Below, one piece after another: positions 1 through 13,632 of a stretch of 64,000 nucleotides of DNA; positions within the stretch are counted from its first letter, which is position 1; every line of letters begins with the position of its first letter. Both the position numbers and the translations under genes were made by a program. The stretch comes from Frigidibacter mobilis (lineage in GTDB: Bacteria > Pseudomonadota > Alphaproteobacteria > Rhodobacterales > Rhodobacteraceae): the NCBI RefSeq assembly GCF_001620265.1, contig NZ_CP012661.1, positions 3,950,501 through 4,014,500 on the forward strand. The letters run 5' to 3'. Below the pieces are notes generated by a model. That model was not told the origin of the DNA. It searched no databases and saw only the letters and a list, made by a program, of their open reading frames with translations.

Positions 1-917
1 TCGCCGAAGGTGCGTTCGGAGCGCAGGATCAGCCTCTGGCCAAGGTTGAGCGCGCCGGCCTCAACCCTCTGCCCCGGCCCCACTGCGATCAGCGCAACCT
101 CGCCGGTCAGAACAGCACGGCTGACCTGGCTTTCCCCCTTCAGCACCACCCCATCCATGCTGACCGGCGCCCCGGCCTCGACCGCAACAGCGGTGCCGGG
201 CGCCACCTCTCCACAGGGGCGCGGAACCCATATACCGCCCTCAGAGACCAAAGCCGTCTCGGGGGTCGCCGCCTCCATGGAGCGCAATGCCTCCACCGCG
301 CCGCGCCGGGTGGTCGTATCGACCAGCCGCCCGAACAAGAGCAGCGTGATCAGCATGGTGGCAGTGTCGAACCAGACCTCGGACCGGCCCTGGAGCAGCG
401 CCAGTAGCGAGGCAAAACAGGCCGCGAGCGCGCCAAGCGCGATCAGCAGATCCATCCCCGGCGCCCGCAGCAGGATGGACCGCCAAGCCATCCACAGTAT
501 CCCCGCCCCGGCCCAGAACACCACCGGCACCGCGAAGATCCCCGAGGCCAGCGCCAGCCACCAGGCCGTGCCGGGGGCCAGATCGGCGAAATAGATCACC
601 AGCGCCGGCACCATCGACCACATGCCCGCAAATACCGCGACTGCCAGCCGGATGCCAAGGCGGGCGATCTCGCGGCCCATGGTGGCAGAAATCTCTTCGG
701 GGCGATGGCGTGGCGCCATCCGGTAACCCGCCCGGGCCGTTGCCGCGCGTAGCGCCTCGAGGCCGGTCACCGCCTCATCCCAGTCAATCAGGGCGGAAGC
801 AGTCAGGTAATGTACCCCCGCCGAGCGCACCCCTGGCAGTGCCTTCAGCCGCCCCTCCAGTCCGCGCGCGCAGCCCGCGCAGGCCAGACCACCAATTCCG
901 AAAAGCTGCCGTGTCAC
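1..917 (-). CDS. Copper-translocating P1B-type ATPase, CcoI/FixI-like (N-terminal part, runs off window)
   Basis: Membrane pump predicted to move copper across the inner membrane, probably to supply the CuB site of the oxidase encoded upstream. The visible 305 codons start with a heavy-metal-associated domain carrying CAGC near residues 13-16. They continue through hydrophobic helices and into the actuator domain, where a TGE motif is followed by a GALN stretch. The GTG start at 917-915 is chosen because it follows the tsdA-like stop by 7 bases and keeps the whole metal-binding domain. The phosphorylation (DKTG) and CPC regions lie outside the window, so metal specificity is inferred from the HMA motif and from the oxidase operon context (ccoI/fixI genes accompany cbb3 oxidases). 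Confidence 0.85.
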   Translation of the reverse strand, partial: MTRQLFGIGGLACAGCARGLEGRLKALPGVRSAGVHYLTASALIDWDEAVTGLEALRAATARAGYRMAPRHRPEEISATMGREIARLGIRLAVAVFAGMWSMVPALVIYFADLAPGTAWWLALASGIFAVPVVFWAGAGILWMAWRSILLRAPGMDLLIALGALAACFASLLALLQGRSEVWFDTATMLITLLLFGRLVDTTTRRGAVEALRSMEAATPETALVSEGGIWVPRPCGEVAPGTAVAVEAGAPVSMDGVVLKGESQVSRAVLTGEVALIAVGPGQRVEAGALNLGQRLILRSERTFG

Positions 918-924
918 GGCCTGC

Positions 925-1971
925 CTACTCCAGCGGCGTCGGGCCGATCGGCAATTCCGGCGCGCCGATAGGGCGTTCGGGATCCGGTGTGCCGGTGCCC
1001 AGAAGCACGCCGTTCACCACCTGGCCGTAATAGATCTGATCGCCGTCATGAAAGCGCTGACGGTTTTCCTCGATGGTCATGTCACCCTGGCGCGGATCCT
1101 TGGGCCGCTCATGGCTGTCGATGAAGGCCGCCACATCCCAGGCCTCCTGATCGGTCAGCTTGCCGGGTTGCGAAAGCGGCATGTTGTGCTTGATGAAGGC
1201 CGCCGCCGTGTCGATCCGCGCCATGCCTGCGCCCCAGTTATAGCTGCCCGCCCCCCAGAGCGGCGGAAAGACGGTGCGCCCGTTGGCATCCGCCTGGCCC
1301 TGCCCATCGGCGCCATGGCAGACGGCGCAATTAGCGGTGAAGACCTCGGCCCCACGCTCGGGCGAATAGCCCAGTTCGGTCTTTTCGACCTTGCCGAAGC
1401 CGGTGCCCTCCAGCGCGACATTGGTCGGCGCGCCGGTCGCCAGCCAGTAAAAGTAGCTTTCCAGATCGCGGTAGATGTCGCTGCCATAGGGCGGCGGGCC
1501 ACCCGCCACCGAATGCTGCGCATTCATCGAGAAGGTGAAACAGCCCATTACCCGATCTTCCATCGTGTTGATCTGGTCGTTCTTGCGGCGATACATCGGA
1601 TAGCGCGTCCAGGCCGCCCACATCGGCGACGACATCGGCTGGCGCCCGGCATCCATATGGCAGTTGGAGCAGGACAGGCCATTGCCGACATAATCCCCGG
1701 CATTGGTCGAAGTGTTCATGAAGATGTCGCGTCCGCGCTTCACCGCATCCCCAAAGGGGCCCTCGGGAATTTCGGCATCACTGGGCGGTAGGAAATAGAG
1801 GCTCTCGGTCACCGGGTCGACCGGCGCTTCGCCGCTGATCCAGCCTGGGACCCATCCAGCTTCAAGTGCAAGCGTACCGAGGGCAACCAGCGCCAGCCCG
1901 CCACCCGCGCCAAAGATCACCCGCTTCGCAGAGCGGCCTTTTTCGACTGCCTCATTATGGTCAGCGCCCAT
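925..1971 (-). CDS. tsdA: TsdA-like diheme thiosulfate dehydrogenase, membrane-anchored
   Basis: Predicted to oxidise thiosulfate to tetrathionate, or run the reverse reaction, on the periplasmic face. The 348-residue protein has an N-terminal hydrophobic anchor (about 17-37), heme motifs CSNCH (101-105) and CAVCH (215-219), and a cysteine at 144 in a GCFTFSMN context. That cysteine matches the unusual axial heme cysteine of TsdA. Met264 in an NMPL motif fits the second heme's distal ligand in some TsdA enzymes, and the C-terminal AWDVAAFI and RPKDPR segments are TsdA-typical. The ATG at 1971 has GGAGG about 9 bases upstream; it lies inside the end of the preceding gene (11-base overlap). TsdA is usually soluble periplasmic, so the anchor and its place in an oxidase operon are unusual. 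Confidence 0.82.
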   Translation of the reverse strand: MGADHNEAVEKGRSAKRVIFGAGGGLALVALGTLALEAGWVPGWISGEAPVDPVTESLYFLPPSDAEIPEGPFGDAVKRGRDIFMNTSTNAGDYVGNGLSCSNCHMDAGRQPMSSPMWAAWTRYPMYRRKNDQINTMEDRVMGCFTFSMNAQHSVAGGPPPYGSDIYRDLESYFYWLATGAPTNVALEGTGFGKVEKTELGYSPERGAEVFTANCAVCHGADGQGQADANGRTVFPPLWGAGSYNWGAGMARIDTAAAFIKHNMPLSQPGKLTDQEAWDVAAFIDSHERPKDPRQGDMTIEENRQRFHDGDQIYYGQVVNGVLLGTGTPDPERPIGAPELPIGPTPLE

Positions 1972-3223
1972 CGTCGGAACCCTCCAGCTGTGCAATTGCG
2001 TCCGGGCCGACGGCGGGAACCGCCGGCAGCGTTGCGAGATAGTCAGCGACAGAGCGGCGGTCCCGCTCTGACATTGCCGCCGAAATCTGGTCCATCAGTC
2101 CAAGCGGTGAATTGTTCCGGTGCCCGCCAGCCCAGGCCGCCAGTTGGCTGGCGACATAGGCGGGCTGCTGTGCAGCCAGCGCCGGGAAATCGGGTGCCAC
2201 CCCGAAACCTGAAGGGCCATGGCAGCTGAAACAGGCCGGAATGCCCTGACCCCAGTCACCGCGCAAAGCGATTTCCTCGCCGCGCGCCAGATCGCCGCCA
2301 AGTGAGGGCCCGGCGGTCGATGCGACACGCAGCCCGGCATAATAGCGGGCAAGGCCATCGATCTCGGCATCGCTCAGCGCGCTGGCGACAAAGACCATAT
2401 GCTCGTTATAGCGCGCGCCATCCCGGAAATCGCGCAACTGCCCGGCCAGATAGCCCTCCGACAGACCGGCGAGGCGCGGCGTGTTCTCCACGCCTTGGCC
2501 AAGCCCGCCATGGCAGCTGGCGCAAGCCCAGACATTGCCGCTCCCGGCAAAGATCAGATCCGAGACCGCCGGGTTGATCGCGCTTTCCGTCCGCTCGGAC
2601 ATGGCGGGCTGCGGCGGCAGACCTGCGACCAACGAGGCAAGCTCCGCACCGCCCTGCCAGCTGTCGCGCCCTGAAACACTCTCGCGCAGGGTGCCGACGT
2701 TCGCGGGGGAAAGTGCGGCCTCTTGCCCGCCAAAACGGGTCGAGACATAGGCCGCAACCTGGGCGATCTCGGCGTCAGACAGGGCGGTGGCGAAGCTGGG
2801 CATATGGCCGTCATAGGTGAAGCCCTTGACCCTGATCGGCCCGTCGATGCCGCGCAGCATGATCTGCGCCACCACTTCCGGCCCCGCTTTGGCAAATTCC
2901 GACCCATCGAGCGGCGGCACGGCCAGGCGCACCCCGACACCATTGGGCTGGTGACAGGTGGAGCAATTGGCCAAAAACACGGCCTCCCCGCTTTCGGCGG
3001 CGCCATGGGCAAGCATTTCACCCGCCTCGCGCTCACTTTGCGCGACGCCATAGCTGGTCTGATCCTCGAACAGCATCGCCGTGCCCCAGATCCCAAGCGC
3101 CAGGGCGATCCAGATCACCGGCAGCGGGATTCGGTTGTGCGTCTCCCAGGGCTCATAGCTTTCGGGCGGTCGAACCGCATTGCGAAGTGGTTTGCTGGCG
3201 TCATGCTTGCTGGCTTTGTTCAC
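1961..3223 (-). CDS. Membrane-anchored triheme c-type cytochrome, CcoP-like role
   Basis: A 420-residue electron-transfer protein with one N-terminal transmembrane helix (about 33-51) and three class I cytochrome c domains. Their heme motifs are CSTCH (87-91), CASCH (234-238) and CFSCH (331-335). Canonical CcoP is diheme with two N-terminal helices, so this is not a standard CcoP. Its place directly after ccoO suggests it carries electrons from the TsdA-like enzyme or a soluble cytochrome to the oxidase. It overlaps ccoO by 4 bases (ATGA), indicating translational coupling. Tandem domain duplication is likely, since the second and third domains share a similar layout. The exact family is uncertain. 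Confidence 0.8.
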   Translation of the reverse strand: MNKASKHDASKPLRNAVRPPESYEPWETHNRIPLPVIWIALALGIWGTAMLFEDQTSYGVAQSEREAGEMLAHGAAESGEAVFLANCSTCHQPNGVGVRLAVPPLDGSEFAKAGPEVVAQIMLRGIDGPIRVKGFTYDGHMPSFATALSDAEIAQVAAYVSTRFGGQEAALSPANVGTLRESVSGRDSWQGGAELASLVAGLPPQPAMSERTESAINPAVSDLIFAGSGNVWACASCHGGLGQGVENTPRLAGLSEGYLAGQLRDFRDGARYNEHMVFVASALSDAEIDGLARYYAGLRVASTAGPSLGGDLARGEEIALRGDWGQGIPACFSCHGPSGFGVAPDFPALAAQQPAYVASQLAAWAGGHRNNSPLGLMDQISAAMSERDRRSVADYLATLPAVPAVGPDAIAQLEGSDDGR

Positions 3224-3840
3224 GATCCGTCCCCTTTGCGGGCATAACCGTCATCGCGCAGCGCATCTTCAGGCACGGGATAGGTGCGGTCGAGCGAGAG
3301 GAGATAGGCGGTCAGGTCAAGTGCCTCGGGGCGGGCAACGATCACGCCGGCAGCTGGGCCGAAACCTTCGGGCAGCACGACGACGGTATCACCGGGCGCC
3401 GCCTCGGCCTTCTCCTCGAAGAGATAGGGATAGGCGGGCATGATCGACCAGTCGAAGATCGCGCGCGGCTGGTAGAGATGCGTCAGGTGCCAGCTTTCCG
3501 ACGGCAGCCGCGCGCCGACATTCAGGATATCCGGCCCGGTGCGCATGGTACCAAGCTGATGCGGCTGGTCATAGACGTAATCGCCCGCGACCGAGGGACG
3601 ACCCCAGCCCCGCTCTCCGTCCGGGGCCTGCTCCGGCGCGCGCGGCTGCTGGCTGTGACAATAGACGCAGCCAAGGCTGACATATTGATCACGGCCGCGC
3701 TGCTCCTGTTCGGAATAGGGGCGCAGACCTTCGGGGATGCTGCGCCCCGCCATCTGGATGCCCGGGGCGATCACCAGCATCAAGGTTGCAAAGGCCAGGA
3801 TGCCAAGGGCGACCACGACAAGGGGAAGATAGCGGTTCAT
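3220..3840 (-). CDS. ccoO: CcoO-like monoheme cytochrome c oxidase subunit II
   Basis: Partner subunit of the CcoN-like catalytic subunit, anchored by one N-terminal helix (about 5-25) with a periplasmic monoheme domain. The 206-residue protein contains CVYCHSQQ at 58-65, a characteristic CcoO heme motif. A VYDQP..RTGPDI stretch and MPAYPYLF supply the probable axial Met. The ATG at 3840 is preferred over an upstream ATG at 3879 because it overlaps the ccoN stop in an ATGA and places the hydrophobic helix at the true N-terminus. Length is close to usual CcoO (about 200-240 residues). Confidence 0.88.
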   Translation of the reverse strand: MNRYLPLVVVALGILAFATLMLVIAPGIQMAGRSIPEGLRPYSEQEQRGRDQYVSLGCVYCHSQQPRAPEQAPDGERGWGRPSVAGDYVYDQPHQLGTMRTGPDILNVGARLPSESWHLTHLYQPRAIFDWSIMPAYPYLFEEKAEAAPGDTVVVLPEGFGPAAGVIVARPEALDLTAYLLSLDRTYPVPEDALRDDGYARKGDGS

Positions 3841-5380
3841 TCTGCGGCCACCGGGTTTTGGACGGCACGCGGCTTGCACAGGATGCCGATGATGTTGATG
3901 GCAAAGACGATATGGCCCAGCGTCATCATGGTGCCGCCGATCGAGCGCGCCTCAAGATAGGGTTTCGTCAGGATCACGCTTTCGGCGAAGCTGCGGGTGG
4001 CATCCAGCATCGCCAGCCCCTGCAACACCCCGCCGATGGAAAGCGAGAAGAAGTAAATCGCAAAGCCCAGCACCACGAGCCAGAAATGCAGCTGGATCAG
4101 GCCCGGCCGGGAAAAGTCACGCCCCATCATACGCGGCATGATGTGATAGGCGGCCCCGAACATCACGATGGAGACGAAGGCATAGGCCCCCAGATGCGCA
4201 TGACCCACCGTATAGTGTGTGAAATGGGTGATGGTATTGACCGAGCGCAGCGCCTCGATCGAGCCCTGAAACGAGGCGAAAGTATACATCAGCGCCCCGA
4301 AGGCGATGAAGCGCAAGGGCAGCGACTCCTTTAGCGCCCAGGTGTTGCGGGCGACTGTGACATGTTGGTTCGCCGCCACCGCGATCACCGGGATGAACAT
4401 CATCACCGAATGCACGACCGACAGCGTGACAACCCAGGTCGGCACCGGCCCGCCGATCAGGTGGTGGATGCCAACCTGGCTGTAGAACAGAGCCAGCCCC
4501 AGAAACCGATCAGCGATAGCGAATAGGAATAGATCGGTTTGCCGATGATTTTCGGAATGAAATAATAGGCCGTGCCCACGCCCATCGGCGTCAGCCACAG
4601 GCCCAGCACGTTATGGGCGAACCACCAGTTCACCGTGGCTTCCTCGACCCCGTAATGGATGCCGGGCAGGTTGGCGATGAAGAACAGGCAGGGAAACCAG
4701 ACCATCGCGGCCAGGAAATACCAGCCGGTGACATAGATATGGTCGACCTCGCGCGCGCGGGCGGTTTTCACCAGCGGCACCACGAAGAAGACGCCTGCCA
4801 GCACCAGCAGCATGTCGAGCTGCCAGGGAAACTCCAGCCATTCCTCGCCATCGGTCCAGCCATGGGCGAAAGCGGCGGCGCCAAGGAAAACCGCGGTGTT
4901 CCATAGCCAAAAGCCGATTACCGGCAGCTTCGGCGCGCGCAAAGGCGTGCGGAAGATGCGCGGCAGGATCCAGAACATGCAGGCGATGCCGATCTGCGAC
5001 AGCCAGCCATAGGCGACAAGGTTCAGGTGCAGCGCCCGCATCCGCCCGAAGGTCAGCGGTGCCGCCTGGTTCAGCCAGTCGGGCCAATGCAGTTTCAGCG
5101 AGGCGATGACACCGAAGGTCGAGCCGACCACCAGCCAGAAGATCGCGCCAAGGATCAGCAGTTTCACCGGCCGGGCCGAAACCCTGTCGATGCCGGTCGT
5201 GTCAAACAGATGCGTGCCGTCGGTATCCGGCCCGTCGGCACCCTGCTTGCCAAAGACGGTGGCGGCATGAGCGCGGTCCAGGGCGAATTGCTTCGTGGCG
5301 ATGGCCCAGATCAGGAATCCCAATGCCAGCAGGGAAACGACAAAGCTCAGGGCCAGCAAAAGCCCCATTGTGATCGGCAT
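3837..5380 (-). pseudogene. ccoN: CcoN-like heme-copper oxidase subunit I, interrupted by one frameshift
   Basis: Catalytic subunit of a C-family (cbb3-like) oxidase. The frame running down from 5380 and the frame ending at 3837 together give about 514 residues. They carry the expected ligands: a helix II histidine in HLNLVAYGW (H118), CuB His in WWFAHNVLG (H256), a Tyr-then-HH pair in FYSQVGIHH (Y300, H306-H307) and TVGHAHLGAY for the two hemes. The reading frame breaks at a four-C run at 4497-4500. Restoring one base gives GFWGLALFY, the continuous family motif. All downstream subunits are intact, so a sequencing deletion is as likely as a real mutation. A qNOR-like enzyme was considered, but the HN/HH/GHAH layout and the CcoO partner favour cbb3-like. 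Confidence 0.85.
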
Positions 5381-5540: not shown

Positions 5541-5972
5541 TCATATCCGGGCTATGGAGTGAGTCAGATCGATCCCCACCCCTGCGGATTTCAGCAGATT
5601 CCCGATGTTGCAACCCGCCTCGGCCTTCTCGATCAGCCGCCCGACCCGGTCATTCGCCGCACCATCCACAGAAAGCGAAAGTGTCAGGTGGTGGTCGATT
5701 GCGATGCCCGCGCCACCACTGCCCTGCGCCACGGTCTCGATGGAAATCGGCCCGTGTTCCACTCCCGACGCCTCAAGGATGGCAACGAGGTTCAGGATCA
5801 GGCATTCCGCAGCGGAAGCGGCAAGAAGGCTCTTCGGGTCCAGCCCCTTGCCGGTTCCGCCGTGCCCGGCAGGCATGGCAAGATCACCGCCAATATGGCC
5901 GGAGGTGATCCGCCCCGCGCCGGCTTTCCCTCCGGTCCAGGTCAGGCTGAGTTTATTGTGGATGTCGGTCAT
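5541..5972 (-). CDS. OsmC/Ohr family protein
   Basis: 143-residue OsmC-fold protein. These are homodimeric thiol peroxidases or persulfide-handling proteins in the cytosol. The first conserved cysteine sits in the AAECLILNL helix (around 76) and the second in AEAGCNIGNLL (around 120), the usual pair. It lies just upstream of the ccoN operon with the inverted repeat in the gap, and downstream of the DsbA-like gene. The substrate (organic hydroperoxide or a sulfur compound) cannot be told from sequence; the surrounding sulfur genes favour a role with reactive sulfur. Confidence 0.82.
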   Translation of the reverse strand: MTDIHNKLSLTWTGGKAGAGRITSGHIGGDLAMPAGHGGTGKGLDPKSLLAASAAECLILNLVAILEASGVEHGPISIETVAQGSGGAGIAIDHHLTLSLSVDGAANDRVGRLIEKAEAGCNIGNLLKSAGVGIDLTHSIARI

Positions 5973-6013
5973 GGAAGTGCCCTCGATGATTTTCTTTGCG
6001 CCTGCCGGTATTG

Positions 6014-6646
6014 TCAGCCGCGCTCTTTGGCGATCACATCGCGGATGACATCGATCTCATAGGCGCCGGGCATCAGGGTCCAGCCGATCAGATAGGCCGG
6101 TGTGCCCTGAAGGCCAATCGCACGGGCCTGCGCCTCGTTGCGAGAGACAAGACCCATCCAGCGCGCTTCCTCACGCGCAAAGCCCGCGAGGGCGGCGGCG
6201 GGGTCGACTCCCGCCGCACGAACAGCCTCGTCCATCACCTCCGGCGCGACCCGCCTGCCTTCGATCTGCATCAACGCTTCATGCGCGGCCTCATACTGAC
6301 CAAGACCCGCCGCCCCCAGCCCCAGCCGCAGCCCGTGAACCGAAGCCTCGCCGAAGATCGGCCAGTCCTTCATCACGAGACGGATGTTGCCGTCCGCCCG
6401 CACCATGTCCATCAGCCCCGGATGTCCCTTGCGACAGAAGGGGCATTGATAATCATAGAATTCCACCAACGTGACATCGCCCTCAGGATTGCCAAGCAGC
6501 GGCTGATCCGGGTCGTGGGTCAGTTCGCGCCGGAACGCCTCTGCCTCGGCATCCTGGGCGCGGCCCGGCCCGGCGACCAGAAAAAGGCCGGTGCCCATGG
6601 CGGATCCGATTAGGTTTCTGCGGGTCAGGGTTGGGTTCTGGGTCAT
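6014..6646 (-). CDS. Tat-exported DsbA-family thiol:disulfide oxidoreductase
   Basis: Periplasmic thioredoxin-fold protein of 210 residues. The signal has twin arginines (9-10, LTRRNLIG) and a hydrophobic stretch ending at GRAQ. The active site is CPFC at 68-71 and the cis-proline loop is GTPAYLIG. It belongs to the DsbA/BdbD-like group, which oxidises or isomerises substrate disulfides. The start overlaps the L,D-transpeptidase stop by 4 bases, making it the last gene of dsbD-tlpA-ldt-dsbA. A paralogue with CPHC lies at 10149-10781. Confidence 0.87.
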   Translation of the reverse strand: MTQNPTLTRRNLIGSAMGTGLFLVAGPGRAQDAEAEAFRRELTHDPDQPLLGNPEGDVTLVEFYDYQCPFCRKGHPGLMDMVRADGNIRLVMKDWPIFGEASVHGLRLGLGAAGLGQYEAAHEALMQIEGRRVAPEVMDEAVRAAGVDPAAALAGFAREEARWMGLVSRNEAQARAIGLQGTPAYLIGWTLMPGAYEIDVIRDVIAKERG

Positions 6647-7395
6647 GGCTGTCCTCCTTCGGGGGGAATGGTTGCAGCAGCGGAAATGGCGAGGGGGATC
6701 GGCATTCCGGGTGGCACGGTGCCCTTGCCGCTTTCGGCCTCGGTCAGAACGACCACCCGCGCGCCGGAACGCACCATCCCCTCGAGTTCGATCACATCCT
6801 GATGGAACATGCGGATGCAGCCCGCCGAGGTCGCATTGCCGATCGACCCCATGTCGGAGGTGCCATGGATACGGTAGAACGTGTCGCGATTGCCCTTGTG
6901 CAGGTAGAGCGCCCGGGCACCGAGCGGATTGTTCAGCCCGCCCTCCATACCATCGCGCAGCGGGCCGTATTGATCGGGGAATTCACGGATCATGTTGTCG
7001 GTCGGCCGCCAGGACGGCCAGTCACGACTATAGGGGATATGCGCCGTTCCGGAGAAGGCGCGCCCCTCGTCGCCCACCGCCACGCCATAGCGGATCGCGC
7101 GGTTTTCGGGCAGCACATAATAGAGAAACCGCTGCCAGGGATCGACGATAACGGTCCCGGGTTTCTCGTCTGTCCAGTAATCCACCTCACGCCGGATGTT
7201 GCGGTCGCTGAGATATTTCGCAGGCACGGACGGGACTTCGATCTCACCATCGGTCAAGGCTGCGTAATGTGTCGCAATCCCGGGCGCCAGAACGGGTTCA
7301 GCGGGAGAAAAGGGTTGATCGGGAACGGCGCATCCAGCCAGTGCCAGAACAAGGGCCAGACGGGGCGCCACGCGACGGCGAAAGCGTGTCATCAT
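6643..7395 (-). CDS. L,D-transpeptidase (YkuD) lipoprotein
   Basis: Predicted periplasmic peptidoglycan cross-linking or lipoprotein-attaching enzyme with a cysteine nucleophile. The 250-residue protein begins with a positively charged N-terminus and a lipobox ALAGC, so it is probably lipid-anchored. The YkuD catalytic region is visible as HGTSDMGSIG followed by SAGCIRM (His, then Ser-x-Gly-Cys-x-Arg). The start at 7395 is chosen because it overlaps the tlpA stop by one base (TGATG); a longer upstream extension has no signal peptide. Its position inside a disulfide-reducing operon suggests the catalytic cysteine must be kept reduced by the neighbouring DsbD/TlpA. Confidence 0.85.
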   Translation of the reverse strand: MMTRFRRRVAPRLALVLALAGCAVPDQPFSPAEPVLAPGIATHYAALTDGEIEVPSVPAKYLSDRNIRREVDYWTDEKPGTVIVDPWQRFLYYVLPENRAIRYGVAVGDEGRAFSGTAHIPYSRDWPSWRPTDNMIREFPDQYGPLRDGMEGGLNNPLGARALYLHKGNRDTFYRIHGTSDMGSIGNATSAGCIRMFHQDVIELEGMVRSGARVVVLTEAESGKGTVPPGMPIPLAISAAATIPPEGGQP

Positions 7396-8201
7396 CAGTC
7401 GTTTTCCTTCAGGTCGCGGATCCCGGCCATCAGATGCGCATGAGAGATCTCGCCCATATGGGCTGCGCGTAATGTGCCGCTGGCATCGATGAACAGGGTT
7501 GCGGGCAGACCCATGGCCGCAAAATGCCGCATCATCTGCGAGCCCGGATCCATGACGGGCGCGATCACGATGCCCTCGCGTGAAAGGTAGCGGCGCACGG
7601 CCTCTGCCCCCTCGCCCTGATTGACGAAATACATGTCCACATCGGTCAGGCCCGCCGCCACCTCTGCCATCATCGGCATCTCGCGCCGACAAGGCGGGCA
7701 CCAGCTTGCCCAGAGGTTGATCACCATGGGCCGTCCCTGCCAGTCGGCAGGGGTCACGGGATCGCCGGAAAGCGTGGCAAGCTGCATATCGCCAAGCGGC
7801 GCAACATCCATGCCCCGGGCCAGTTGCTGCGCCACATTCCAGCCGATGAAGGCAAAGACAACCGACGCCACCGCAGGCAGGATCAGATCGGTCCGGCGTC
7901 CCAGATACCAGGCCGACACCGCCGCAAAACCAGCCGCACCCCAGAGCGGGCTGAACCCTCCCTGCCAGAAGGCAAGGATGGAAAGCGGATCGGCCCTGAA
8001 GCTTTCAAGATTCTGGACAACGAAACCCAGCCGTGCCGACAGCGCCGCCGCCAAGGCCGCCGCACTGGCCCAGTTGGCAATGGCCGGGCCCCGCGTGCGG
8101 GCGATGAAGCCGCTGGCGCCCAGCAGGATCAGCAGCGCCAGCAGAACCGGCGCACGATCGGCGGAGAACACAAAGGGTCCAAGTGCAAAGCCTCCCATCA
8201 C
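7395..8201 (-). CDS. TlpA-like thioredoxin with N-terminal multi-helix membrane domain
   Basis: 268-residue membrane protein. Residues 10-130 contain about four hydrophobic helices resembling the small Lgt-like domain sometimes fused to TlpA. Residues 140-268 are a TlpA/ResA thioredoxin domain with WCPPC (167-171) and a GLPATLF cis-proline loop. It probably reduces periplasmic disulfides, for example apocytochrome c hemes sites or the catalytic Cys of the adjacent transpeptidase, taking electrons from DsbD. The start overlaps the dsbD stop by 4 bases and the stop overlaps the transpeptidase start. No enzymatic Lgt residues were identified, so lipoprotein transfer is not claimed. Confidence 0.85.
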   Translation of the reverse strand: MMGGFALGPFVFSADRAPVLLALLILLGASGFIARTRGPAIANWASAAALAAALSARLGFVVQNLESFRADPLSILAFWQGGFSPLWGAAGFAAVSAWYLGRRTDLILPAVASVVFAFIGWNVAQQLARGMDVAPLGDMQLATLSGDPVTPADWQGRPMVINLWASWCPPCRREMPMMAEVAAGLTDVDMYFVNQGEGAEAVRRYLSREGIVIAPVMDPGSQMMRHFAAMGLPATLFIDASGTLRAAHMGEISHAHLMAGIRDLKEND

Positions 8202-10039
8202 TCCACCGCCTTCGCCAGCGACACGGATCGGAGAATGTCGTCCGGTCGGACAGTGCCTATCAGGCGCGTGTCGGCAGGCTCGCGCAGGGCAGTGTCCAGA
8301 AAAATCATCGTCGGCGGCCCCGCCGCGCCCAGATCACGCAGCAGGGCCTGCCCCGCCTCGTCGAGTTGCGTCACATCGACCTTGAAGAGCCGCAGGCCTC
8401 CAAGCGCGGTCTGCACCTGGCGGTCGGGCAGGACGTGGCCCTCGATCCCCTTGCAGGTCACACACCAATCGGCGGTGACGTAGATCATCGCCGGATCAGC
8501 CGGGCCCTCCGACAGGGCCGCGGCCAAACCGGCCGGACTGGAAATCGGCGTAAAGGCAAGTGTGTCAGCCGCGCGCACCGGCCCTCGCGCCAACAGGGGC
8601 GCCAGCGGGCGCAGCGGATCCTGCCCACCAAGTGCGGCGCCGATCGCCAGCAGAACGGCGGCAATCAAGGCAGCAATGCCGCCGCTGCGCAGCAGGCGCA
8701 TGAATCCGCTAGCACCCACCTCCAGCCGGTCTAGGACGCCGAGGAGCACCGCCATCCCCACCAGCAGCATTGACCACAGCGCCAGAACCAGCGGCCCGGG
8801 CAGAATGCGCGCGGCCAGCCAGATCGCGAGGCCGAGGAAGACGAAACCGAAGACCCGCCGCATAGCTTCCATCCAGGCCCCGGCCTTCGGCAGGACGCCG
8901 GCGCCGAACGTGCCCGCAACGATCAGCGGAACCCCCTGCCCCAGACCCAGCATGAACAAAGCCGCCGCGCCAAGCGCCACATCCCCCGTCTGCGCGATGT
9001 AAAGGAACGCCCCCGCCAGCGGCGCAGTCACGCAAGGCCCGACGATCAGCGCCGAGGTAAATCCAAGCGCTGCCGCCCCTGCAATCGAGCCTCGACGGCC
9101 CGCGCCCGGCAAACCCGCGGTCAAACCAGCGGGCAGGGTCAGGTCGAAGAGCCCGAAACTGGACAACGCCAGCAGAACGAACAGCACGGCAACCGAGCCC
9201 ACCGCCCAGGGTGATTGCAGCACCATTTGCAGGTTTTGCCCCGACCAGCCCGCCACCGCGCCAAGGCCCGCGAAGGCCATGGCCATGGCCAGCACATAGA
9301 CCCCGGACAGCATCGCCCCGCGGGCGGGTGTTAGCCGTTCGCCCTGACGGGCCAGCATTCCGGCAAGGATCGGCACCATCGGAAAGACGCAAGGTGTCAG
9401 CGCCAGCGCAAGCCCGAAACCAAGGAATGCGAGCAGAACCAGTCCCGTGCCCCCGCGCAGGGCCAGGCCCGCCAGCATGCCTTCACCCTTTGCCAGTTCC
9501 ATCTGCGGTACAGGGGTCGGCACCTGTTCCACCACCTGACCCGAGCCTGCTCTCCGCGCGGGATCTTCTGTTGCGAAACCGCCCGGCACTGTCCCCGCCG
9601 CCAGTTCCGGCAGGCTCAGGCGGCTGGTGACTGGCGCATAGCAGATCCCATCCTCCTGACAGCCCTGCCAGGTGATGCGCACATCACCACCGGCACGCGG
9701 CAACAGGACAGAGGCATTGTCATAATAGACTTCCACCCGGCCAAAACCTGGATCGTCCTTGATCCGGCCCGCAGATGTCTCGACCGCAAGGGCCACGCCA
9801 TCGGCGGTATGGGCGGCGATCTGATCGCGGTAAAGGTAGTAACCCTCGGCAATACGCCAGCCGATGCTTGCCCGGCCATCCTCGACCGACAGCACTTCGA
9901 TGATGAAGGCCTCCTCGGGATCAAGCGGCCGGTTTCCACCACCCGCGAAAGAGAAGGTCTGCGCCTGCGCCGGGAGCCAGAACACTAGAAGCGCCAGAAG
10001 CAGCGCGGCGCAGGCACTAAGGGAGAGATTGTGTTTCAT
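8198..10039 (-). CDS. dsbD: Thiol:disulfide interchange protein DsbD
   Basis: Transfers reducing power from cytosolic thioredoxin across the inner membrane. The three-domain layout is complete in 613 residues: signal peptide (1-26), periplasmic alpha domain with Cys127 and Cys133, and a central eight-helix domain with paired membrane cysteines in LTPCVFP and VGPCVTAP. A C-terminal thioredoxin domain carries CVTC at 526-529. First gene of a four-gene operon with 1-4 base overlaps. The CTTAA-N7-TTAAG repeat sits 22 bases upstream of the start, a place where a repressor could block transcription or an activator could act. Confidence 0.93.
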   Translation of the reverse strand: MKHNLSLSACAALLLALLVFWLPAQAQTFSFAGGGNRPLDPEEAFIIEVLSVEDGRASIGWRIAEGYYLYRDQIAAHTADGVALAVETSAGRIKDDPGFGRVEVYYDNASVLLPRAGGDVRITWQGCQEDGICYAPVTSRLSLPELAAGTVPGGFATEDPARRAGSGQVVEQVPTPVPQMELAKGEGMLAGLALRGGTGLVLLAFLGFGLALALTPCVFPMVPILAGMLARQGERLTPARGAMLSGVYVLAMAMAFAGLGAVAGWSGQNLQMVLQSPWAVGSVAVLFVLLALSSFGLFDLTLPAGLTAGLPGAGRRGSIAGAAALGFTSALIVGPCVTAPLAGAFLYIAQTGDVALGAAALFMLGLGQGVPLIVAGTFGAGVLPKAGAWMEAMRRVFGFVFLGLAIWLAARILPGPLVLALWSMLLVGMAVLLGVLDRLEVGASGFMRLLRSGGIAALIAAVLLAIGAALGGQDPLRPLAPLLARGPVRAADTLAFTPISSPAGLAAALSEGPADPAMIYVTADWCVTCKGIEGHVLPDRQVQTALGGLRLFKVDVTQLDEAGQALLRDLGAAGPPTMIFLDTALREPADTRLIGTVRPDDILRSVSLAKAVE

Positions 10040-10060
10040 GGGGGCTGACTTGGAAAATCC

Positions 10061-10080
10061 GGCTTAACCGGGCCTTAAGC
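10061..10080. promoter_or_regulatory. Inverted repeat upstream of dsbD operon (operator 2)
   Basis: GGCTTAA then CTTAAGC with a CTTAA-N7-TTAAG core at 10063-10079, 22 bases before the dsbD ATG. It shares core and spacing with the sites before the ccoN operon and the second dsbA-like gene. Confidence 0.6.
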
Positions 10081-10148
10081 GATGCCCCCTGTGACCGGAC
10101 ACGAATGCGAGAGCATCGCGCATCTGCGGTGTATATGTCGGGTCCAGT

Positions 10149-10781
10149 TCAACTCAGATCCTTGCGCGCCTGTGCGACCAGATCCCTCAGTTCAGACCCG
10201 GATCTCTTGCCGAACAACGCATCGTTGCCGGCAATGAAGGTAGGCGTCCCCCTCAGCCCCATATGGTCACCGAGGGCCATGGATTGCGCAATGTGATCCT
10301 CGACATCGGCGGCCCCCATATCGCTTTGCAGCTTTGCCAGATCCAGCCCGACCTCCTGCGCGACCTGCATCGCCGAAGCCTCTTCGGCCCGGCCCCGGAT
10401 CGCCATCAACCCGCTGTGGAACTGCCAGTATTTCCCCTGTTTCAAGGATGCCAACGAGGCGCGGGCGCAGAATTCGGAGCCTTCGCCGAAAACAGGCCAT
10501 TCCCGCAGCACCACCCGCAGATGCGGATCATCCCCGATCAGCTTTCTGATCACCGGAACGCTGGTCCGGCAATGCGGGCAGTTGTAGTCGAAAAACTCGG
10601 TCAGGGTGACATCGCCCTTCGGATTGCCCAGCACGGGCGAGAAGGGCTGCCGCTCTATCGCGTCGCGCAACTCGGGTGGCATAAGATTGTCTTGTGCCCG
10701 TGCCATGGGCACGCCAATGGACAGGGCGACGCCCGAGATCAGTCCGAGCGTGATGAATTCGCGTCGTTGCAGTCTACACAT
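10149..10781 (-). CDS. Second DsbA-family thiol oxidoreductase, Tat-type signal
   Basis: 210-residue DsbA-fold protein with CPHC at 68-71, the classic DsbA active site, and a GTPTFIAG cis-proline loop. The N-terminus carries QRREFITLG, a twin-arginine-like motif, followed by a hydrophobic stretch and ARAQ. Same length and active-site position as the CPFC paralogue at 6014-6646, so the two probably arose by duplication. It stands alone between the dsbD operon and the permease gene and has its own CTTAA-N7-TTAAG site 53 bases upstream. Confidence 0.87.
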   Translation of the reverse strand: MCRLQRREFITLGLISGVALSIGVPMARAQDNLMPPELRDAIERQPFSPVLGNPKGDVTLTEFFDYNCPHCRTSVPVIRKLIGDDPHLRVVLREWPVFGEGSEFCARASLASLKQGKYWQFHSGLMAIRGRAEEASAMQVAQEVGLDLAKLQSDMGAADVEDHIAQSMALGDHMGLRGTPTFIAGNDALFGKRSGSELRDLVAQARKDLS

Positions 10782-10859: not shown

Positions 10860-12248
10860 TCACAGCGCGCCCAGCAGTTTCCACCACAGAAAATCCAGTG
10901 GCAGCAGCACAAGGAAGGTGATCAGCGCCAGCGGCAGGGTGATCCGCAGCAGATGGCCCAGCTTTTCGCCCGACATCTGCATGGCAACGACCAGAGGGCC
11001 GACCTGATAGGGGAAGATCACGGTTGAGAACCCGATCACCTGCGTCATCAGAACGGTGTTCAAGCTGAACCCGGTCTGCTCGGCCAGATCGCCGGCCATC
11101 GGCGTTAGCACGGCCGGAACCCCCGGCACGGTGGTGAACAACCCCGTCACCGCCGACATCAGCGACAGCGAGGCGAAGTTCGTCGCATCCGCCCCCGGCT
11201 CCAGCGGCAGCACCGCGATCAACGCCTGCCCCAGCATCGCCCCCAGCCCGGAAGCATTGACCAGCGCCCCGAGCGCCAGCGCCCCGGCGACAAAAAGCAG
11301 CATCCCGAAATCGACCGAGGCCTTGAAGGCCGGCGGCGTAACGATGCCGATCCCGGGCAACAGCAGCAGCACCGCCGCGACCAGCCCGATCCAGGCCGAG
11401 TTCACCCCATGCAGGCTGTCGGTCATCCACAGCGCCAGCGTCGCCAGCAGGATCACCGCCACCCGGATCCGCGCGGCAGGGCTGACGGGCTTGTCGCCTT
11501 TGGCGGACTCGCGCGCGGGAAGGGCGGGGCCGGGCGTATCCGGGAACATCCACAGGACCAGAGCCACGACCGCCACCGCCTTCAGCACTCCCAGCACCGG
11601 AAAATGCAGCAGCAGATAGTCCATATATCCGAAATGCGCGCCATGGATGGTCTCGGCCGCGCCGGACAGCACCATGTTGGGGATGTTCGAGGGCAGGATG
11701 GTGAAGCCGGGCATATTGGTGCCGATGGCCAGCGCCGATGCGATGCCGATCCGACCCTTTGATCCCGGGCCAAAGCCCATTTGATCGGCCAGTGCCATGC
11801 CGACCGGCACCATGACCACCGCGCGCCCGACCGAGGACGGCATCAGAAAGCTCAGCAGAATGGAGACTGCCATCAGCCCCGCGATCAGTCGAGGATAGCT
11901 GCCGGTCAACAGAGGCGCGAGGCCCCGCGCCAGCATCGCACCCAGCCCCGAGATCGAGATCGCCGCACCGATCACAAAGCCCGACACGATCAGCCAGACC
12001 GCCGTCGACTGGAACCCCGCAAAGACCAGATCCGGGGGGGCCAGACCAAAGACCAGCAGCACCGCGAAAAAGATCAGGCTGGCCAGATAACCGGGCACAA
12101 GGCTCGTGCCCCAAAGCACCAGCGTCACCAGAACGATACCGAGAATGCATGCCTGATCCGGCATCAGCAACGGCGGCGGCAGGATCGCCATCACCAGTGC
12201 CAGCAGGGCAACGACTCCTGCAAGTATGTGTTTGACGGAGAAAGTCAT
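10860..12248 (-). CDS. SLC13/DASS-type anion permease
   Basis: 462-residue integral membrane protein with about 11-12 helices and two pseudo-symmetric halves, as in the divalent anion:Na+ symporter family. The first half contains a LMPSSVGRAVVMVP stretch and the second FTTVPGVPAVLTPMA, resembling the paired SNT-like anion and sodium loops. Substrate could be sulfate, a dicarboxylate or another anion; the motifs do not settle this. It is divergent from the AraC-type gene at 12324 with 75 bases between starts, so that regulator probably controls it. Confidence 0.75.
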   Translation of the reverse strand: MTFSVKHILAGVVALLALVMAILPPPLLMPDQACILGIVLVTLVLWGTSLVPGYLASLIFFAVLLVFGLAPPDLVFAGFQSTAVWLIVSGFVIGAAISISGLGAMLARGLAPLLTGSYPRLIAGLMAVSILLSFLMPSSVGRAVVMVPVGMALADQMGFGPGSKGRIGIASALAIGTNMPGFTILPSNIPNMVLSGAAETIHGAHFGYMDYLLLHFPVLGVLKAVAVVALVLWMFPDTPGPALPARESAKGDKPVSPAARIRVAVILLATLALWMTDSLHGVNSAWIGLVAAVLLLLPGIGIVTPPAFKASVDFGMLLFVAGALALGALVNASGLGAMLGQALIAVLPLEPGADATNFASLSLMSAVTGLFTTVPGVPAVLTPMAGDLAEQTGFSLNTVLMTQVIGFSTVIFPYQVGPLVVAMQMSGEKLGHLLRITLPLALITFLVLLPLDFLWWKLLGAL

Positions 12249-12323
12249 CTGACCAAACCGAAGGGGCTGATTGGTATCAGCTCTGATCTAGCCTTGACTG
12301 CACCCTTGTGCCAGACTGCGATC

Positions 12324-13139
12324 ATGACAACAGATGTCGCCAAACCGCCAGATTTCGACCCCTCAGATATCGCCTTCACGATAGATCCGGCGCGCCCCAT
12401 CCTGACCCATGGCAGGGTGATCGAAACCGGACGCGCGGTCCGCCCGCACAGTCATCCGCGCGGTCAGCTTCTGTGGGCTATGCGCGGTGTGCTCCGGGTG
12501 GTCAGCAATTCCTGTATCTGGCTGGTTCCGCCCAGCCATGCCGTCTGGATCCCCGGCGGCATGAAGCATCAGGTCACCATCGAGGCAGAGGCGGAACTGC
12601 TGAACATCTATGTCGACCCTTCGGTCACGGTGCGCACGCCGACACGGCCGATGCCTTGCTGCGCGGTGCTTTTGCTGACTCCGCTGGCGCGCGAGTTAAT
12701 CCGCAGGCTTGGCGACAGCGATACGTCCGCCCCCTTCGATGAACGGCTGCTCAGGTTCTGCGCCGTGCTGCTCGATGAGGTGGAGGGCCTCACTGAGGCA
12801 CCGCTCAACCTGCCCGGCGGCCAGGATGAGCGGCTGGTCCGCGTCACACGCCATCTGATCTGCCATCCGGAAGACCCGAGCCAGCTTCCCGAACTGGGTC
12901 AGATCGCAGGCGCAAGCCCCCGTACGCTGGAGCGGCTCTTCCGCTCGGAAACCGGGCTCAGCTTCCGGCAATGGCGGTCAAAACTGCGTCTGCTCAGTGC
13001 GATCGAGGCGCTGAACCGCGGCGAAAGCAGCACCACCATCGCCTTTTCGATGGGTTACAGCAGCCCGAGCGCCTTCATCGCCGCCTTCCGCGAAGCCTTT
13101 GGAACGACACCACAGCGGTTTCTGAACAACGGCTCGTAA
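12324..13139 (+). CDS. AraC-family transcriptional regulator with cupin N-terminus
   Basis: 271-residue regulator: an AraC_binding cupin-like domain (about 20-110, PHSHPRGQLLWAMRG and a conserved P-H patch) followed by two helix-turn-helix motifs (about 165-265, including LERLFRSETG and FSMGYSSPSAFIAAFRE). The ATG at 12324 is preferred to far upstream starts because the preceding codons overlap the divergent permease. Cupin-AraC proteins of this shape often regulate a neighbouring transporter, so the SLC13-type gene is the probable target. Confidence 0.88.
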   Translation: MTTDVAKPPDFDPSDIAFTIDPARPILTHGRVIETGRAVRPHSHPRGQLLWAMRGVLRVVSNSCIWLVPPSHAVWIPGGMKHQVTIEAEAELLNIYVDPSVTVRTPTRPMPCCAVLLLTPLARELIRRLGDSDTSAPFDERLLRFCAVLLDEVEGLTEAPLNLPGGQDERLVRVTRHLICHPEDPSQLPELGQIAGASPRTLERLFRSETGLSFRQWRSKLRLLSAIEALNRGESSTTIAFSMGYSSPSAFIAAFREAFGTTPQRFLNNGS

Positions 13140-13143
13140 ATCC

Positions 13144-13181
13144 GGTTACGACGAGGCGATTGCTTTCACCCCGCCGTAACC
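13144..13181. terminator. Hairpin between convergent araC-type and trmO genes
   Basis: GGTTACG (13144-13150) pairs with CGTAACC (13175-13181); the stem extends inward with a few mismatches around a GC core. It lies directly after the regulator stop and before the convergent trmO stop, so it could terminate transcription from both sides. No long T run is visible. Confidence 0.5.
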
Positions 13182-13221
13182 ACCCCGCCGGCCTTCGGGA
13201 CGCTGAAGGCCAGCGGGAGTT

Positions 13222-13632
13222 CTATGCCTTTGGCGACCTGCCGCCACAGGAAACCGGCTTGATATCCAGTAGAGCCGTGCCATCGAGGCAATCGAGGGGA
13301 CCGACGACAAGATTATGCCCCTCTACCGCGATCAGTGGCACCCGCGACAGCGCCACCGGATTGGGGCGATGCGGGGAGCGCATGGCAAAAACCCCGCGCT
13401 CGACCCCATCATGCGGGCTGACCGAACGCAGCACATCGCGCGCTGCGCGGTCAAACCAATAGAGAAGATCAAGCTCAGATGCCGCCAGCGCATGAAGCCC
13501 TTCGGCATATTCCGGCAGGATGTCCAGACGCGCCTCCTCCCTGCCCCGTCCCGGGCCACTGGGGCAATCCGCCAGCGTCTTCCATGGGGTGCGGATTTGG
13601 CCGATGGGCCGCAAAAGGATGGGCGCGGTCAT
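13222..13632 (-). CDS. trmO: TrmO-like tRNA (t6A37) N6-methyltransferase
   Basis: 136-residue protein of the TrmO/YaeB family, which uses SAM to methylate N6-threonylcarbamoyladenosine at position 37 of certain tRNAs. The conserved block reads RSPHRPNPVALS and the second motif is DCLDGTALLDIKP. The C-terminus ends soon after that motif, shorter than E. coli TrmO (about 235 residues), as in many short alphaproteobacterial homologues. The stop overlaps nothing; the start overlaps the next gene's stop by 4 bases. Confidence 0.85.
   Translation of the reverse strand: MTAPILLRPIGQIRTPWKTLADCPSGPGRGREEARLDILPEYAEGLHALAASELDLLYWFDRAARDVLRSVSPHDGVERGVFAMRSPHRPNPVALSRVPLIAVEGHNLVVGPLDCLDGTALLDIKPVSCGGRSPKA

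Follow-up and report, generated by a model that had tools for sequence, protein, structure and literature searches.

Results

An operon that probably links thiosulfate oxidation to oxygen reduction

We analyzed a stretch of 64,000 nucleotides (nt) of Frigidibacter mobilis DNA (the window; contig NZ_CP012661.1, positions 3,950,501 to 4,014,500), whose minus strand carries an operon that reads, from 5' to 3', ccoN, ccoO, the gene of a 3-heme cytochrome, tsdA and the gene of a P-type ATPase of copper type (Table 1). As judged from sequence comparison, this operon probably encodes a dedicated electron path from thiosulfate to oxygen, built on a non-canonical oxidase of the cbb3 type (C family). 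Its gene order recurs across many genera, its 3-heme protein contains TsdB (the known electron acceptor of TsdA), its TsdA and CcoN each belong to a lineage of their own, and the residues on which both enzymes depend are largely retained.

The reading frames overlap by 4 nt between ccoN and ccoO (ATGA), by 4 nt between ccoO and the 3-heme gene, and by 11 nt between the 3-heme gene and tsdA; tsdA and the ATPase gene are separated by 7 nt. A preliminary description of this DNA had placed all five genes in one overlapping operon. The five gene types, their common strand and the three overlaps stand, but ccoN lies in two frames, and the ATPase gene, from 917 down, begins beyond the gap and outside the interval 925 to 5,380 assigned to the operon. 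That canonical diheme CcoP and CcoQ are missing, as was also claimed, is borne out: ccoO ends where the 3-heme gene starts, and there is therefore no room for ccoQ between them, and none of the six proteins tested reaches the ccoP cut-off (the best, the 3-heme protein, scores 55.7 against 179.95 bits).

Table 1. Operon features, with positions in the window
Feature	Position	Strand	Evidence and remarks
ccoN-like, 5' part (307 amino acid [aa] frame)	4457..5380	-	CcoS-like N-terminal ~60 aa plus N-half of CcoN; PF00115 5e-36; TIGR00780 135 bits vs cut-off 583
ccoN-like, 3' part (253 aa, other frame)	3837..4598	-	C-half of CcoN; PF00115 6e-41
ccoO-like monoheme subunit	3220..3840	-	PF02433 FixO 1.4e-32; one CxxCH; ATG 3840 (listed open reading frame [ORF] starts at GTG 3879)
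3-heme membrane cytochrome (420 aa)	1961..3223	-	N-terminal membrane segment, CcoP-like monoheme domain (~66-176), TsdB/c4-type diheme domain (~226-405)
tsdA-like diheme thiosulfate dehydrogenase	925..1971	-	N-terminal hydrophobic segment (anchor or signal); 5lo9 4.5e-86; A. vinosum TsdA 6.3e-50
P1B-type ATPase of copper type, 5' part	1..917	-	TIGR01511 1.2e-28 on the in-window part; remainder beyond the window

Conservation of the gene order

We scanned one genome per species (84,980 species) with an alignment of the 3-heme protein, which matched at least 595 stretches. The loci compared below are the best 80 (79 loci) of at least 295 stretches that encode a 3-heme relative, picked by the 3-heme protein alone. 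CcoN, CcoO, one or more TsdB-bearing genes and TsdA follow each other in this order on one strand in 67 of the 79 loci, and the ATPase gene then follows tsdA in 56 of these 67. A lack of conservation of the gene order had been named beforehand as one outcome that would refute the preliminary description; this outcome did not occur, and the recurrence led us to reject the view that the oxidase is a chance neighbour of tsdA. The two enzymes are known, and the wiring between them is genuine and conserved. By class, 40 of the 67 loci fall to the Alpha-, 13 to the Beta- and 13 to the Gammaproteobacteria, with one unassigned; the 60 loci with a named genus represent 37 genera, 24 families are named, and the total includes near-copies. 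Two of the loci collected are repeats: L185 of L011, and L140, from the same contig, of L048. Gaps of at most 60 nt, measured to the nearest start codon (which favours small gaps), were found for ccoN-ccoO in 65 of 67 loci, for the TsdB-bearing gene and tsdA in 66 of 67, and for tsdA and the ATPase gene in 56 of 56. Of the loci fetched, Szabonella alba (Paracoccaceae) has the closest operon, with 86% identity in TsdA and 84% in the 3-heme protein. Guyparkeria SCN-R1, whose tsdA homologue is of unsettled function according to PMC9032823, carries the operon as well (L070), as do Paracoccus versutus and P. thiocyanatus (L008, L057).

The 12 loci outside this count comprise three cut by contig ends (L049, L058, L066), two without CcoNO (L045, L048), three without TsdA (L082, L084, L085), one without any Tsd gene (L086) and three with other arrangements (L087-L089). 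Two further arrangements were not counted as the operon: a canonical ccoNOP near a TsdA (G173/L161) and a TsdBA fusion whose stretch also carries ctaD (G389/L153). On pSymB of S. meliloti (L010) cytochromes lie beside ctaD; as our search gave no match to TsdA for the second of these cytochromes, we took this for a different system.

Among 397 evenly drawn Pseudomonadota genomes (the genome of the window included), 44 have TsdA-like genes. Leaving aside the genome of the window, we examined the surroundings of 47 TsdA places, which lie on 46 stretches, some of them truncated at the end of a contig. The operon arrangement occurs in one of the 396 other genomes (G129, with a deleted ccoN). Genome G269 has the lipoprotein variant of Caulobacter, with a single CcoN match in the canonical range (2.3e-62); in the Caulobacter loci L045 and L048 the usual membrane segment has disappeared from the 3-heme protein, which has acquired a lipobox-like LAAC. 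Genome G173 has the canonical ccoNOP near a TsdA, and the remaining TsdAs lie beside a TsdB-like gene, lie beside or are fused to a 3-heme cytochrome of alcohol-dehydrogenase type, or have neither that we found. Four genomes of the draw with an operon-like CcoN had been missed by the TsdA search (E <= 1e-20); they proved to be of a monoheme type without Tsd genes and add no further operons. The arrangement is therefore broad but rare, being spread over three classes and many genera in the species scan, yet represented, outside the genome of the window, by the single case of G129 in the even draw.

TsdB within the 3-heme cytochrome

Its domain matches identify the 3-heme protein as a fusion of TsdB with a monoheme cytochrome that resembles CcoP. 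The monoheme domains matched by residues 66-176 include that of CcoP; further on, residues 230-405 align with the TsdB portion of the TsdBA fusion 5LO9 (4e-28) and residues 226-397 with cytochrome c4 (4.7e-27). In L055 the two parts are separate genes, and the fused protein shares 42% identity with the cytochrome and 55% with the TsdB encoded there. A structure model (mean predicted local distance difference test [pLDDT] 75.5 and predicted template modelling score [pTM] 0.60, with residues 1-25 and 50-62 below 50), read for layout only, places a helix at 34-74, followed with moderate confidence by helices that would fit three cytochrome c domains. The preliminary description was right about the three hemes and overlooked the TsdB content; the usual partner of TsdA is present as part of the fusion.

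In the 67 complete loci TsdB takes three forms, namely the fused 3-heme protein (38), a diheme TsdB with its own anchor (16) and a TsdB next to a separate monoheme cytochrome (13). An FEPWE-like motif precedes the membrane segment in all 38 fused and all 16 diheme proteins and in 9 of the 13 separate monoheme cytochromes, and a 19-residue hydrophobicity of 1.6 is reached in 36 of 38, 16 of 16 and 13 of 13, respectively. TsdB thus appears to share the anchor of the oxidase-side cytochrome.

Common descent and joint transfer of CcoN and TsdA

In a tree of CcoN, 59 Tsd-linked rows and three rows with TsdB only occupy one branch (SH-like approximate likelihood ratio test [SH-aLRT] 98), which adjoins five CcoN-CcoO-monoheme cytochrome operons without Tsd genes and stands apart from 27 CcoNs of canonical type. 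This is a quick tree in which long branches were flagged; it leaves out nine near-copies, each with 97-100% identity to a row that was retained, and L054, whose CcoN is short. The TsdA tree sets 31 operon and two Caulobacter rows on one side against 39 others, among them 5LO9, the A. vinosum enzyme and TsdAs that stand alone (ultrafast bootstrap [UFBoot] 100, SH-aLRT 99; all of 200 bootstrap trees, or 100%, show the split). These 72 rows leave out additional operon-type and other TsdAs. A separate TsdA tree of 103 rows agrees with this grouping; the 14 of 117 rows that it omits are those of the same nine loci together with L028 (a single CxxCH), L127, L145, L173 and L179.

The CcoN and TsdA trees also agree where they depart from bacterial class: in both, the alphaproteobacterial L063, L064, L069 and L080 group with gammas, the gammaproteobacterial L059, L068 and L078 with betas, and L039 with alphas. 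Since rows of the wrong class are placed alike in both trees, CcoN and TsdA moved together. The likely history, by inference from these trees, is that a CcoN-CcoO-monoheme oxidase gained tsdBA once, that TsdB was then fused to the cytochrome or took over its anchor, and that TsdA was lost in three loci.

Residues retained in TsdA

For tsdA, the ATG at 1971, which is preceded by GGAGGG, is a more plausible start than the TTG at 1995. The protein has two CxxCH sites (CSNCH and CAVCH) and keeps the Cys of heme 1, its RVMGC aligning with RIGDC of the A. vinosum enzyme (AvTsdA); the R-x-x-x-C motif of this Cys is present in all 117 TsdA-type rows collected. An alignment of 28 operon-type TsdAs shows no exception at Lys130, Arg140, Cys144, Ser148 and Asn263-Met264 (counted from ATG 1971). 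According to PMC4423706, TsdA forms tetrathionate from thiosulfate by way of a Cys S-thiosulfonate at heme 1, and the residues tested in AvTsdA (precursor numbering) include Arg109, Arg119, Cys123, Ser127 and Arg224. Aligned by eye, the window TsdA keeps the last four of these and has Lys at the Arg109 site, as 5LO9 does and as do all 72 operon-type TsdAs. At the Arg224 site (the Arg of the electron domain) the same 72 have Arg in 60, Lys in seven and Gln in four, with one unscored (the pattern gave artefacts for L008 and L044, which we put right by eye).

The oxidase subunits and the copper ATPase

Among solved structures those closest to CcoN are cbb3 CcoNs (3mk7, 1.9e-74). A nitric oxide reductase was considered and rejected for this protein: the Tyr of transmembrane helix 7 (TM7) and the oxidase ligands are present, and NorB matches at only 2.3e-5. 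With positions aligned to 3mk7, the His ligands of heme b, heme b3 and CuB and the TM7 Tyr are kept in 68 of 68 Tsd-linked CcoNs, in the columns of the 27 canonical CcoNs. The family is nevertheless below the canonical level: the intact CcoN of L011 scores 291 bits against the TIGR00780 equivalog cut-off of 583, and the window CcoO, well above the PF02433 cut-off (113 against 29.6 bits), reaches 110 against 200.65 bits for TIGR00781. At the position of the canonical Glu, which we take to be E323 in P. stutzeri numbering, near heme and the proton path, 64 of 68 operon-type CcoNs have Gln; three residues further on, 66 of 68 have Glu as against Met in 26 of 27 canonical CcoNs. This pair of positions is, in the alignment, a signature of the operon-type CcoN clade. 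Where the position could be scored, the CcoN N-terminus has about 60 extra residues, for which FixS (PF03597) was the best family in four of four fragments, at only 13.9-20.7 bits against a cut-off of 23.1 (for the window, 0.0012 on the first 66 aa).

In the window, the ccoN frame is open to about 4490 and then continues in another frame (5380-4457 and 4598-3837), one base being missing at or beside a run of G (four G, against five in L011 by alignment and in L008, L044, L057 and L012 by pattern; L013 has four G with one extra T behind them). The gene is a single intact ORF in the relatives L008 and L011. P-type ATPase genes elsewhere in the assembly match in several pieces (C1:3717537-3719363, 4702604-4704297 and 4090761-4092394), a sign of indel errors or pseudogenes; for this reason the frameshift in ccoN may be a sequencing error as well as a real mutation. 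The genome has four other COX1-type genes, among them a canonical-type CcoN with an open frame at C1:4696573, and it encodes SoxA above cut-off.

The ATPase is complete in locus L004 (726 aa, 11237-13417), where it scores 361 bits for TIGR01525 (cut-off 346) and 332 bits for TIGR01511 (cut-off 397); it is thus assigned to the general P1B type only, and its comparator, the genome's own CcoI candidate, is a split gene.

The proposed electron path and its alternatives

In the path that we propose, a periplasm-facing TsdA would oxidize two thiosulfate to tetrathionate at its Cys-ligated heme; its second heme would relay the electrons to the diheme domain of TsdB, from which they would reach the CcoO heme, heme b of CcoN and finally the heme b3-CuB site, where oxygen would be reduced. 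Transfer from TsdB to CcoO is suggested because TsdB is fused to, or anchored in the same way as, a CcoP-like cytochrome, and oxidation of thiosulfate is the more likely direction for TsdA because an oxidase adjoins tsdA. The ATPase probably supplies copper for CuB, a CcoI-like role. A dedicated route of this kind had been suggested in the preliminary description and is well supported by the conserved gene order, the TsdB fusion in 38 of 67 complete loci, the single clade of operon-type TsdAs, the joint horizontal transfer and the retained key residues. For the stricter version, in which the proteins would form one membrane holoenzyme (a thiosulfate:O2 oxidoreductase with TsdA docked on a cytochrome-TsdB fusion that replaces CcoP, so that electrons would never leave the assembly), we see about an even chance.

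Several observations weigh against a dedicated path. Loci L082, L084 and L085 have CcoN, CcoO and TsdB without TsdA, and the Caulobacter loci (L045, 7740-10010; L048) have a TsdB-type 3-heme protein and TsdA without CcoNO nearby. The arrangement is rare in the even draw, and its one instance there (G129/L141) keeps CcoO, TsdB, TsdA and the ATPase next to a CcoN that has lost its middle; ccoN of the window is itself frameshifted as sequenced. When pairwise identities are compared among CcoN, CcoO, TsdA and the ATPase, the correlations are only moderate (rho 0.33-0.58 over 56 loci), which is weak taken alone. In TsdA, the Arg224 site is Lys or Gln in some operons, and the Asn-Met pair at heme 2, which is present in 5LO9 too, is also found in C. 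jejuni TsdA, a tetrathionate reductase according to PMC5146829.

The alternative that survives best, although we consider it unlikely, is that TsdA-TsdB and the oxidase are merely co-expressed, with electrons mixing in the cytochrome c pool and the oxidase also taking those of bc1. For TsdB, the acceptor of TsdA, donation to cbb3 (PMC9237845) or to heme-copper oxidases in general (PMC9774590) has already been proposed where it is encoded apart. The Caulobacter TsdB/TsdA pair without adjoining CcoNO (with the canonical-range CcoN match of G269) points the same way. Co-expression gives no reason, however, for a TsdB that in 54 of 67 loci is either joined to the oxidase-side cytochrome or has an anchor like that of this cytochrome, while the operon of the window has no canonical CcoP.

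A quite improbable reading has TsdA act on another sulfur compound, or as a tetrathionate reductase, in a setting of periplasmic thiol or metal stress. In its favour are the DsbD-, TlpA-, DsbA- and OsmC-like neighbours at 5541-10781, the occurrence of DsbD-like genes at 20 of 67 operon loci but only 2 of 38 loci with a stand-alone TsdA (stretches of differing length), the Asn-Met pair shared with the C. jejuni enzyme and the Lys at the Arg109 site. That Lys is also found in M. purpuratum TsdBA, however, the Cys, the other Arg and the Ser of TsdA are invariant in 28 of 28, and a tetrathionate reductase would compete with the adjacent oxidase. Finally, it is scarcely credible that this is an ordinary or decaying cbb3 operon which TsdA adjoins by chance and which its broken ccoN has made inactive in the genome of the window: the two frames of ccoN, the internal deletion in G129 and the canonical-type CcoN with an open frame elsewhere speak for it, but the order holds in 67 of 79 loci, the relatives are intact, several other genes of the assembly are split too, and the intact L011 CcoN is far below the canonical cut-off and on a separate branch.

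The fusion of TsdB with an oxidase-side cytochrome makes the link from TsdA to oxygen, which the literature consulted states only generally or as possible (TsdB 'could' donate to cbb3), directly testable. If the dedicated path is correct, cbb3 oxidases would extend to ones with a built-in donor enzyme; if the holoenzyme exists, a clade of these oxidases would have specialized by taking in a substrate dehydrogenase. The operon marks bacteria that may burn thiosulfate as a side fuel, many of which we presume to be heterotrophs. We found no description of the operon or of the cytochrome-TsdB fusion in the open-access literature searched, a scope outside which lie key subscription papers, with an earlier mention possible in Kurth et al. 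2016, Denkmann et al. 2012 and Ducluzeau et al. 2008.

Neighbouring genes and other TsdA types

The window continues at 5541-10781 with genes for OsmC, two DsbA-like, a TlpA-like, an L,D-transpeptidase-like and a DsbD-like protein, a group that we take to be Scs-like. A response regulator and a histidine kinase are found in 21 of 67 operon loci and in 4 of 38 stand-alone TsdA loci. Just outside the window (L004, 8118-9119 and 9017-10357, minus strand) are encoded a second TsdA-like protein, 36% identical to the first, and a 3-heme cytochrome of alcohol-dehydrogenase type. The two form one 5-heme protein in L164, L167 and L184 and lie as a pair directly upstream of ccoN in L014, L016, L018, L019 and L021; the pair may represent another type of TsdA together with an acceptor specific to it. 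Locus L153 (6971-8779, minus strand), from a genome of the family to which the window belongs, encodes a TsdB-TsdA fusion of 603 aa and four hemes that resembles the one of M. purpuratum; its stretch also contains ctaD.

Comparison with known systems

With canonical CcoNOQP the operon shares the CcoN ligands and Tyr and a monoheme CcoO. It differs in having neither CcoQ nor diheme CcoP, in a third subunit that carries TsdB, in CcoN and CcoO below the curated cut-offs and in a Glu position that is mostly Gln. Also related are the operons of ccoN, ccoO and a monoheme cytochrome (L086, L216-L219), with a CcoN 46-54% identical to that of L011 in L216-L219 (49% for the C-half in L086) and a homologous monoheme cytochrome, but without TsdB and TsdA; they may represent the 'distal' cbb3 of Ducluzeau et al. 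2008 (cited in PMC8788666 and PMC7029218). The cytochrome c4 of the cbb3 structure entries 8smr and 8snh, which matches the TsdB domain (4.7e-27), provides an earlier example of a cbb3 oxidase with a protein of c4 type, although it is a separate chain there. We take that c4 to bridge bc1 and cbb3, and TsdA to be no part of those entries.

On the side of thiosulfate, the tsdB-tsdA operons of Halomonas and others, and A. vinosum TsdA, resemble our operon in a c4-type TsdB directly upstream of TsdA and in the conversion of thiosulfate to tetrathionate (PMC9237845 and PMC8014003, the latter reporting that some Halomonas with tsdBA form tetrathionate). Their TsdB is a separate protein, however, and the stand-alone TsdA stretches that we examined (a few cut by contig ends) have no ccoN or ccoO except for the canonical ccoNOP of G173. 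The Marichromatium purpuratum TsdBA fusion (5LO9) is alike in its TsdA part (4.5e-86), its TsdB part, the Lys at the Arg109 site and the Asn-Met pair of heme 2. In that protein the fusion partner of TsdB is TsdA, whereas in our operon TsdB is joined to a membrane-bound CcoP-like cytochrome, with TsdA a separate and probably anchored protein encoded beside the oxidase.

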